A stretch of 64,000 bases of DNA from Acidimicrobiales bacterium (GTDB taxonomy: Bacteria; Actinomycetota; Acidimicrobiia; Acidimicrobiales; MedAcidi-G1), in the NCBI GenBank assembly GCA_016845305.1, contig JAERSW010000041.1, positions 1 to 64,000 of the forward strand. The letters are read 5' to 3'. Shown one piece after another: positions 50,179-54,915 of the stretch (within the stretch, counting starts at the first letter, position 1; each line of letters starts with the position of its first letter). The position numbers and the translations under genes were made by a program. The notes beneath the pieces are model-generated. The model had not been told where the DNA came from. It saw only the letters and a list, made by a program, of their open reading frames with translations, and ran no database searches.

Positions 50179-52731
50179 TCAGCCGCGTGCGGCGATCACC
50201 GCCTCGACGGCGGCCTCCTGGAACGCCTCCGGGTCCATGGAAAAGGCCACCATGGAGTTGGTCTCGAGGATCACCACCATGCCGACCCCGGTGTCCCGGT
50301 CGATGAACCCATTGCCACCCCAGATGCTGGCGGAGACGGGCCGGCCGGTCTCCCGGTCGATGCCGAAGCCGAGTCCCTGTCCCCAGGTCCTGCCGCCGGG
50401 GTCGACGACCATGCCGTCGTACACCCGGGCGATCCGGTCCTCGGTCATGAGGTCGATGGCCTCGGCCGACAGCACCTGCTGGTCACCGCACCGGCCGTCG
50501 CGCAGGAACATCGTCAACAGCGCCGCGACGTCGTCGGCGGTGCCGTGGGCGCCGCCCAGGATCGACGGGTTGTCGGTGGCGGCCAGCGTCGACGGGTCCC
50601 CGCCGAACCCGGTCGGGTATTCCCAGGTGGGCCCGAACGTGAACTGGCTCCACGGGTTGTTGTAGGCCAGCGTGTCCATGCCGCAGGGCTGGACGTACGT
50701 CTCGTCGACCAGCTCGGCCCACGACTTCCCCGAGGCCGCCTCGGCGATGGCTCCGGCCAACTGGAGGTCGGCGCCGGTCCACGGGAACCGGTGCTCGGTG
50801 TCCGGGGCGATCAGGTCGGCGTCGTCGTCGGGGCTGGTGGCGATCGCCTCGCCGCACGCCTGCAACGTTCCCGTGTGCTCCGCTGAGCACAGGTACGGGG
50901 CGTAGCCGCCGGAGGCGAATCCGCCCAGCATGCCGGAGCTGTGCGACAGCAGCTGGGCGACGGTCACGTCGGGCATGCCCGATCCCCACGGTGCCGCGTC
51001 CGAGATGGGGGCGTCGATGTCCAGCACGCCGTCGTCGTGGAGCTTCATCAGGATCCCCGCCGAGAACGTCTCGCTCAGGTTCCCGAGCAGGGAGATCCGT
51101 CCGGGGGCGAACTCGCCGAAGTCGGACCGGTGGACGATGCCGGCGTCGCGTTCGACCACGATCACCGTCCCCCCGTTCAGGCTGTCCCCGACGACGGTTC
51201 GCCGCACGAGCTCGTCCAGCGCCGAGAAGTCGTAGTCCCGTGGTTCGGCGACGAGGTCACCGACCACGTTGCCGCCGGCCGGGGAGTACTCGTAGATGAC
51301 GTTGGCCAACGAGGCATCGACGTCACCGGAGTCGGCGTGGCCGATCACGGTGATCTTCTGGGACCCGCAGTCGCCGAACTCGTCGCACGACAACAGGCCG
51401 GTGAAGCCCTGGTAGTCGCGGACGCCGCTCAGGAACTCGCGGACCCCGGCCCGGTCGATGACCAGTGCCCCGTCGTCGTCGAGGTAGCTGGCCGCGTCGA
51501 TGGCTTCCAGCAGCAGCGTCGTGGCGTCCACGCTGTGCGCCCAGAACGCCGCCGATGGCCGCTCTGCCCACTGGGCTACGTAGGTACCCAGGAAGGAATC
51601 GACGGTGCCGCCGATGATGGTCTGGTTCCGGTTGTTGCCGTAGCGCAGGTCCGGACCGGAGAAGTACAGGCCCTCGGACTCGGGCAGCTCCATGAAGTTC
51701 GACACCATCAGGCCGTCGGCGGCCATCAGGGTCACGCCGTCCATGCCGGCCACGTTGCCGACCTGCTGGACGATGAAGTCGCCCTCGGGCTGGAAGATCG
51801 GGAAGAACAGCATCTCCGGGGCGCCGGCGGCGATCTCGGTCAGGACCGGGACCATGTCGGTGTCGCCCTTGTTGACCGCCGTGAACCCGGTGATCGTCCC
51901 GCCGCCGGCCTCGAAGGCGTCGGCGAACGCCCGGGCCAGGCCCTGGGTGTACGGGTCGCCGTCGTGGATCGCCGCCGCCGTGGTCACCCCGAGCACGTCG
52001 AGGGCGAACCCGGCGGCCGCCGCACCCTGGTACAGGTCGTTGTGCGCGGTGCGGTAGTAGCCGGGGTAGTTGTTCTCGCCGGCCGTCCCGGCCAGGTCGC
52101 TGGTCAGCGACGGGCTGGTGTTGGACGGTGAGATCATCACCATGCCGGCCTCGGAGATCAACGGCGCGGCCGCCGCGGCCGCACCGGAGCAGCTGGTGCC
52201 GATCACGCCGACCACGTCCTCGTCGGCCACGATCGTCTGGGCGGCCGCCGCACCACCATCAGCGCTGCACAGGTCATCCAGACCGGTGCCATACGAGATC
52301 TGGAAGCCCTTGACCTTCCCGGAAGAACTGCCCATCGCATGGAGGGTGGTGTGGATGGACCGCTGGTTCGGGATGCCCAGGAAGGCCACGTCGCCGGAGA
52401 TGGCGTTCAACGACCGGATCTGGATGTCCTCACCCGGCTCGACGCGCACCACGCCGAGCGACCCGTCGCCCAGGTGGTCGGCCGGAGCCGCCTCCTCGGC
52501 GGGTTCCTCGGCGGGTTCCTCGGCCGGCGCGGCCGTCGTGGCCGGAGCGGCCGTGGTCGCCGGAGCGTCATCACTCCCGCTGTCGGCTGGAGCGGCCGTG
52601 GTGGCCGGCGCGGCCGTCGTGGCGGCCGCCGTCGATTCGTCACCCCCGTCCGAGCCACAGGCCGCGGCCACCAGGCCGAACACGGCCAGCAGCGCGACGA
52701 AGGAGAACAGGGACTTCCGTGACCACCTCAT
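50179..52731 (-). CDS. Lipoprotein: ABC-type ligand-binding domain fused to a degenerate beta-lactamase fold
   Basis: An 850-residue predicted lipoprotein: Lys/Arg start, hydrophobic core, and lipobox GLVAAACGS (Cys at about 24). A Thr/Ala/Pro/Glu-rich linker with internal repeats follows (about 25-85), then a Peripla_BP_6/LivK-like ligand-binding domain (about 90-490; GVIGTSCSGAAAAAAPLISE, YPGYYRTAHNDLYQGAAAA). From about 500 to the end is a PF00144 serine beta-lactamase/PBP4*-like fold (LLSHSSGM, AEAASGKSWAELVDE). Its catalytic positions are lost: SxxK is N551-L-S-E554 and YxN is W651-T-G653; the final HxG region also reads IWGGNGF. I infer a binding or sensing protein rather than an enzyme. 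No permease or ATPase gene is adjacent. Confidence 0.85.
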   Translation of the reverse strand: MRWSRKSLFSFVALLAVFGLVAAACGSDGGDESTAAATTAAPATTAAPADSGSDDAPATTAAPATTAAPAEEPAEEPAEEAAPADHLGDGSLGVVRVEPGEDIQIRSLNAISGDVAFLGIPNQRSIHTTLHAMGSSSGKVKGFQISYGTGLDDLCSADGGAAAAQTIVADEDVVGVIGTSCSGAAAAAAPLISEAGMVMISPSNTSPSLTSDLAGTAGENNYPGYYRTAHNDLYQGAAAAGFALDVLGVTTAAAIHDGDPYTQGLARAFADAFEAGGGTITGFTAVNKGDTDMVPVLTEIAAGAPEMLFFPIFQPEGDFIVQQVGNVAGMDGVTLMAADGLMVSNFMELPESEGLYFSGPDLRYGNNRNQTIIGGTVDSFLGTYVAQWAERPSAAFWAHSVDATTLLLEAIDAASYLDDDGALVIDRAGVREFLSGVRDYQGFTGLLSCDEFGDCGSQKITVIGHADSGDVDASLANVIYEYSPAGGNVVGDLVAEPRDYDFSALDELVRRTVVGDSLNGGTVIVVERDAGIVHRSDFGEFAPGRISLLGNLSETFSAGILMKLHDDGVLDIDAPISDAAPWGSGMPDVTVAQLLSHSSGMLGGFASGGYAPYLCSAEHTGTLQACGEAIATSPDDDADLIAPDTEHRFPWTGADLQLAGAIAEAASGKSWAELVDETYVQPCGMDTLAYNNPWSQFTFGPTWEYPTGFGGDPSTLAATDNPSILGGAHGTADDVAALLTMFLRDGRCGDQQVLSAEAIDLMTEDRIARVYDGMVVDPGGRTWGQGLGFGIDRETGRPVSASIWGGNGFIDRDTGVGMVVILETNSMVAFSMDPEAFQEAAVEAVIAARG

Positions 52732-52750: not shown

Positions 52751-52838
52751 GGGGGGGGGGTTCCCGCTGAACCCACCGCCTGATCGACGGACCACCCGCC
52801 GGTCCGCCGTCCGGCAAGGTCACCATCCCCGGGGGGGG
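52751..52838. repeat. Two poly-G tracts between the lipoprotein gene and groES
   Basis: Ten G residues at 52751-52760 and eight at 52831-52838 (preceded by CCCC). The first lies 20-29 bases upstream of the lipoprotein start on the minus strand, where it would be a C10 run in the leader. Such tracts can change length by slippage and are also prone to sequencing error. Confidence 0.8.
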
Positions 52839-52860: not shown

Positions 52861-52866
52861 TATCGT
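52861..52866 (+). promoter_or_regulatory. -10 box (TATCGT) of groES-groEL
   Basis: TATCGT shares its last base with the CIRCE-like operator, so the predicted start near 52873 falls inside that operator. No convincing -35 is seen. The leader to groES would be about 100 bases. Confidence 0.5.
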
Positions 52867-52892
52867 TGGCACTCGTCCGGCGAGACTGCCAA
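52866..52892. promoter_or_regulatory. CIRCE-like HrcA operator
   Basis: TTGGCACTC, nine bases, then GACTGCCAA. This matches the CIRCE layout (TTAGCACTC-N9-GAGTGCTAA), with changes that keep the outer arms paired and one internal mismatch. Its place directly after a -10 box and before groES supports HrcA repression of the chaperonin operon. Confidence 0.8.

Positions 52893-52972: not shown

Positions 52973-54915
<1,943 letters not shown>

Follow-up and report, generated by a model that had tools for sequence, protein, structure and literature searches.

A marine Acidimicrobiales lipoprotein joining a LivK-type binding domain to a catalytically dead hydrolase fold, one of a family of LivK fusions

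A fusion gene between tsaD and groESL

In the window (the whole 64,000-nucleotide stretch of DNA that was analysed) the gene described here lies between tsaD and groESL, in orientation opposed to both. Its frame runs for 850 codons without an internal stop, and the locus holds the following features:

50179..52731, minus strand: LivK-pseudo-beta-lactamase fusion lipoprotein (L001), 850 aa; an open frame, with the same architecture in L016/L045 and L017/L046
52657..52731, minus strand: signal peptide with lipobox-like Cys25 (aa 1-25), from the sequence; LVAGAC or LIASAC at the equivalent place in paralogues
52480..52656, minus strand: Ala/Thr/Pro-rich acidic linker (aa 26-84), from the sequence
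51265..52479, minus strand: LivK domain (Peripla_BP_6, branched-chain amino acid type), about aa 85-489; PF13458, nearest solved relatives 2lbp/1usg, orthology to the stand-alone LivK of livKHMGF operons
50182..51246, minus strand: pseudo serine-hydrolase or beta-lactamase-fold domain (BL, aa 496-850); PF00144, AlphaFold2 pLDDT 94.9, matches to 5tgf (Z 35.5) and EstG (Z 33.8)
51070..51081, minus strand: N551-L-S-E554 at the SxxK position, by alignment
50773..50790, minus strand: RFPWTG (648-653) in place of the RYGG (Tyr) motif, by alignment
52866..52892, plus strand: CIRCE-like element of groESL with 3 mismatches, in the divergent intergenic region; 0 expected in shuffles
52973..53263, plus strand: groES, a neighbour outside the proposed system
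53272..54915, plus strand: groEL, a neighbour outside the proposed system

At the N-terminus, Cys25 sits within LVAAAC with Ala at -3, a lipobox-like setting. Both Pfam domains score above their curated cut-offs, PF13458 over aa 105-445 (E 7.8e-24, 85.4 bits against 31.7) and PF00144 over aa 521-826 (E 5.7e-23, 82 bits against 27), and Pfam finds no permease domain in the chain. An earlier note on this DNA had read the gene as encoding a lipoprotein in which a LivK-like domain is joined to a PF00144 fold that lacks its catalytic residues but keeps the landmark LLSHSSGM, beside groESL and with no adjoining transporter genes. The domain matches and the motif alignment described below bear this out, the landmark is present at 594, and tsaD stands on the other side of the gene. 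A beta-lactamase or resistance function was rejected, SxxK and the catalytic Tyr being missing and NCBIfam giving no match near a cut-off.

The same fusion in other assemblies

Our scan within Acidimicrobiia found the LivK-BL fusion in three genomes of one genus, all of them MAGs. In G003 (L016 = L045, record JAAZZG010000012.1) the fusion is in frame at the tsaD-groES position, as in the window, with 92% identity to the window protein in the LivK part and 71% in the BL part; in G008 (L017 = L046, record JAKURX010000068.1) it is in frame at a different locus, with 80% and 67% identity respectively. A frameshift joining two genes in error, which the earlier note had allowed for, is rejected by these two independently assembled relatives.

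Could the fusion nevertheless be a chimera of metagenome assembly? LivK copies are close repeats, which is why contigs break inside them: many MAG contigs terminate within LivK, and contig C49 has a seemingly chimeric 5' end. However, a chimera would not be expected to recur in frame in two independent assemblies, once at the identical tsaD-groES position, and at the DNA level the LivK of the window gene shares only 76-81% identity with its other copies in the own genome, so that it is not a collapsed repeat. We therefore hold this explanation to be very improbable. At the end of C49 itself (L010 7400-7777, G000:C49) an unrelated frame is joined to the LivK linker repeat, probably through an assembly error at the repeat. 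The truncated LivK genes of a first survey proved, in all cases checked, to be contig ends and not biology. LivK copies per genome are minimum counts owing to these breaks, and where a head is cut at a contig end (C1 and C38 in the own genome) its partner is not readable.

A hydrolase fold that has lost its catalytic residues

We aligned the five BL domains of the fused clade (one each in G000, G003 and G008 and two in G014, thus four genomes) with 34 stand-alone relatives from across the order. SxxK, with its Lys, is intact in 34/34 of the stand-alone relatives, and so is the RYGG Tyr. The domains of the fused clade have Glu (three) or Asp (two) in place of this Lys, Asn (three) or Ser (two) at the Ser position, and Trp (4/5) or Phe (1/5) instead of the catalytic Tyr. 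The Tyr motif, which reads RFPWTG, RWPxTG or GWPATG and lacks Tyr in all five, carries a two-residue insertion relative to RYGG. The earlier note had placed SxxK at N-L-S-E (551-554), as does our alignment, and YxN at W-T-G (651-653); the lack of Tyr stands, and in our alignment the catalytic Tyr falls on F649, with W651 as the alternative, neither of them being Tyr. Of the substitutions whose conservation it had proposed to survey, the losses of Lys and Tyr are general, whereas Asn is found in only three of the five.

The changes reach beyond the catalytic residues. Positions 652, 655, 656, 735, 790, 800 and 809 are near invariant in the intact relatives (Tyr at 735, Trp at 790, Asp at 800, Trp at 809) and altered here, and 735, 790 and 809 vary even inside the dead clade. 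With so many near-invariant positions altered besides Ser, Lys and Tyr, the ancestral pocket is, by alignment, heavily remodelled. In turn, the dead clade has constants of its own (T522, G550, G604, P650, T652 and D655) and keeps an acidic residue at 554; the alignment shows no Lys or Tyr that has become conserved in the fused clade. As a guess, the acidic side chain that replaces Lys would suit an amine or a metal over a carboxylate.

By its predicted structure the domain folds as a serine hydrolase. AlphaFold2 (38 sequences) modelled it with pLDDT 94.9 and pTM 0.93, and the best solved match is 5tgf (Z 35.5, rmsd 2.5 over 310 residues), others among the best being EH7, EstG (7u1c, Z 33.8) and family VIII esterases; the R61 DD-peptidase (1ikg) is among the Foldseek matches. 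Thus the likeness to these PF00144 serine hydrolases of the class C beta-lactamase fold extends over the whole fold, and the difference lies in the replaced SxxK Lys, the replaced Tyr and the further changed positions.

Also related are the stand-alone PF00144 lipoproteins of Acidimicrobiales, which share with the BL domain 38-51% identity over its whole length and four conserved cysteines but keep SxxK and RYGG and have no LivK. One of them, intact with SSSK and RYGG, is encoded in the own genome (L012 4979-6700) and is 49-51% identical to the dead domain. At the equivalent groES-linked place G014 has a related gene (L057 338-2833, G014:C131) for a lipoprotein that lacks LivK and carries two dead hydrolase domains in tandem; LivK and BL heads are thus not inseparable.

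The LivK head and an importer that lacks one

The closest solved relatives of the LivK domain are the E. coli leucine-binding proteins (2lbp/1usg). Among the amino-acid-contact residues of the E. coli protein, which we take to be S79, T102, D121, Y150 and E226, the alignment retains the first four and has Asp in place of E226; in the side-chain pocket W18 has become Leu and Y202 Phe. The head thus resembles E. coli LivK/LivJ, the partners of LivHMGF, in its Peripla_BP_6 fold and, by alignment, in its alpha-amino-acid contacts. It differs in these pocket residues and in belonging to a lipoprotein with a long linker and a second domain, encoded outside the liv operon.

In other Acidimicrobiia families the orthologous LivK (51-69% identical) stands alone, directly before livH-livM-livG-livF in the examples read. 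The MedAcidi-G1-like marine family of Acidimicrobiales has the importer as well, livH being found in 45 of its 48 genomes at the threshold used. We examined 30 livH loci, five of which are uninformative through a contig end within 250 bases upstream; at the 25 informative ones no LivK lies upstream of livH (within 1.5 kb or to the contig end). A BCAT gene occupies that place in the own genus and in one other, and at the livHMGF locus of the own genome (contig C7) livK is replaced by BCAT. In genus g3 (L230-L234) genes for an Opu ATPase and permease stand directly before livHMGF, in one operon and in the same orientation, with no gene for a binding protein, and a genome of that genus, G035, carries a chain of the OpuAC-LivK-LivK type.

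Because livK is missing at the informative livH loci, and given the Opu-livHMGF operon together with the G035 chain, the fused LivK heads likely serve LivHMGF. On these grounds the LivK half of the window protein would correspond to the missing binding protein of the livHMGF importer encoded elsewhere in the genome. The separation is not complete everywhere: in G030, of another genus, livF is followed at a distance of about 2 kb by a LivK head (L236).

LivK fusions across the family

The window gene has company. Wherever the C-terminus of LivK is readable in the family (42/42, in 20 genomes) the chain goes on with a further domain, 250 aa or longer. The Pfam partners are SBP_bac_5 (DppA-type), Bmp, OpuAC, NMT1, a second Peripla_BP_6 and combinations of these, so mostly the binding proteins of other importers; the survey saw no second enzyme-type partner in the family. 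The own genome has further genes with N-terminal domains 73-76% identical to that of the window protein and other partners behind them. Several partners have transporter genes of the matching kind as neighbours, which we recognised by eye in the translations: Dpp (L010, L014, L056), an Opu ATPase and permease (L124, L128), a TauC-like permease (L022), LivF (L125) and an ATPase after a PhnD-like domain (L061). The last of these is a single frame of 1471 aa (L061 2798-7210, G029:C34) of the type LivK-OpuAC-Bmp-phosphonate-binding (PhnD-like), followed by an ABC ATPase gene.

By its domain order, then, the window fusion is one member of a family-wide LivK fusion set. The earlier note was right about the lipoprotein, the dead PF00144 domain and the want of adjoining transporters, and it missed both the fusion set and the link to livHMGF. 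It had also known of no described protein with the pairing, and we too found none: a search of open-access papers, a weak kind of absence, returned no description of such LivK fusions, of fused or tandem binding proteins of this kind or of an inactive serine beta-lactamase-like pairing. A genome paper on the MedAcidi-G1-like family does not mention LivK fusions (PMC10205998). The LivK-BL pairing is a new combination of known parts, and the greater surprise is the LivK fusion set.

Probable exchange of partners and history of the locus

In 11 of the 13 groES loci (genomes) of the genus tsaD abuts CIRCE-groES with no gene between them, and LivK-BL is found there only in the own genome and G003. 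The fusion gene was thus most likely inserted between tsaD and groES. The CIRCE-like element accompanies groES in all 13, including the 11 without the fusion gene.

The LivK tree puts the BL-bearing heads in two places, L001/L016 with L018/L019 and L017 with L020 (support 100/98 both), and the partner of L018/L019 and L020 is LivK2. This forces at least two changes of partner label; yet the BL domains, despite their two LivK head clades, are themselves close relatives. Partners also differ at one and the same locus, beside an AMP-ligase gene, which holds LivK-BL in G008, LivK-OpuAC-Bmp-PhnD in G029 and, in the own genome, a LivK head that is truncated where the contig stops. We read these differences as probable recombination at the LivK module.

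A proposed two-headed receptor and its alternatives

How might such a protein work? We favour, with moderate confidence, a two-headed, membrane-anchored substrate-binding lipoprotein that was built by LivK recombination, one head being a LivK that feeds LivHMGF and the other a non-catalytic hydrolase fold. The lipobox suggests that the fusion would be held at the membrane by a lipid anchor. There, to judge from the retained contact residues, head 1 would capture an amino acid and, livK being missing from the operon, could hand it to the LivHMGF encoded elsewhere. Head 2, given where it sits in the chain and that its fold is preserved, would most likely serve at the cell surface as a module for binding (or contact) without catalysis; in the paralogues that place is taken by another importer's binding protein, for which the hydrolase fold would stand in here. 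The gene itself would have arisen by recombination that joined or swapped a LivK head onto different C-terminal partners, and the fusion would have entered the space between tsaD and groES in the ancestor of a few species. Against this proposal, no transporter adjoins the fusion gene, and the evolutionary rates of the BL domain, above those of its intact relatives, also fit relaxed constraint.

These rates could mean that the BL domain serves as a structural spacer, or that it is a weakly constrained relic without a ligand that fusion placed behind a useful LivK head. In simple NG86 estimates on few sequences, pairwise dN/dS is 0.24-0.73 for the fused-clade BL domains (all below 1) against 0.10-0.25 in the stand-alone clade, and 0.17-0.19 for the LivK half against the same two genomes (G003, G008). 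The variation at 735, 790 and 809 within the dead clade points the same way. However, the frame is open in all five BL copies, the acidic residue at 554 and the new constants are kept, and BL occurs on two different LivK heads and is duplicated in G014, so that we find this reading unlikely. Following an idea of the earlier note, the pseudo-hydrolase could instead act as a cell-wall anchor or sensor, binding peptidoglycan stem peptides, D-amino-acid peptides or beta-lactams uncleaved, with LivK taking a small ligand. In its favour are a confidently predicted fold shared with DD-peptidases and family VIII esterases, R61 included, and the Ser kept in two of the five domains. Yet esterases and EstG stand among the best matches beside peptidases, which leaves no reason to assume a specificity for peptidoglycan, not even in the ancestor, and the changes at 652, 655, 656, 735, 790, 800 and 809 indicate that the ancestral site has not been preserved. 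This suggestion is thereby weakened, and we rate it as quite improbable.

Returning to the two-headed receptor, we envision, tentatively and with rather less assurance, a wider scheme for the marine family. LivK may be a shared, exchangeable head that was fused to the binding proteins of many importers and once to a dead hydrolase binding module; one lipoprotein could then serve several uptake systems, and new receptor combinations would come about by recombination of the LivK module.

Relation to known systems

As a rule, the binding protein of an ABC importer serves that importer alone or is linked to its permease. The welding of one importer's binding protein to several others' in uncultured ocean bacteria suggests that nutrients are captured in dilute water by multi-headed proteins, and the fusion family suggests a testable route for recombining uptake specificities. 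In the version with the dead hydrolase, an enzyme fold would have been recruited in nature as a receptor module. In practice, automatic annotation of such chains by their first or last domain misleads.

The nearest parallels are GlnPQ and OpuA, in which tandem substrate-binding domains are covalently linked to the translocator (PMC8025302, PMC11065425). They likewise have more than one substrate-binding domain per transporter, by which local ligand capture is multiplied, but their domains belong to the permease chain of one importer, whereas the LivK fusions are separate lipoproteins that draw on different importer classes and have no membrane domain linked. The engineered switch RG13 joins maltose-binding protein to TEM-1 (PMC3375305), thus a periplasmic binding domain to a beta-lactamase-type domain. 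Unlike the natural fusion, RG13 is man-made, insertional and catalytically active, and its enzyme is the TEM-1 lactamase.

Two minor observations concern the surroundings of these genes. In several genomes the LivK-LivK2 fusion genes are followed by a gene for a tyrosine-recombinase-like protein of about 350 aa (L009 4451-5512; also L050, L060, L122, L134 and L136); it may be an ordinary XerC/D, or it may matter for partner exchange. In addition, G/C homopolymer runs lie 5' of the fusion gene, in the window at 52751-52760 (by the ribosome-binding site) and 52831-52838 (behind TTGACA), and their lengths vary among the three groES-linked loci (window, L045 and L057), possibly through slippage.
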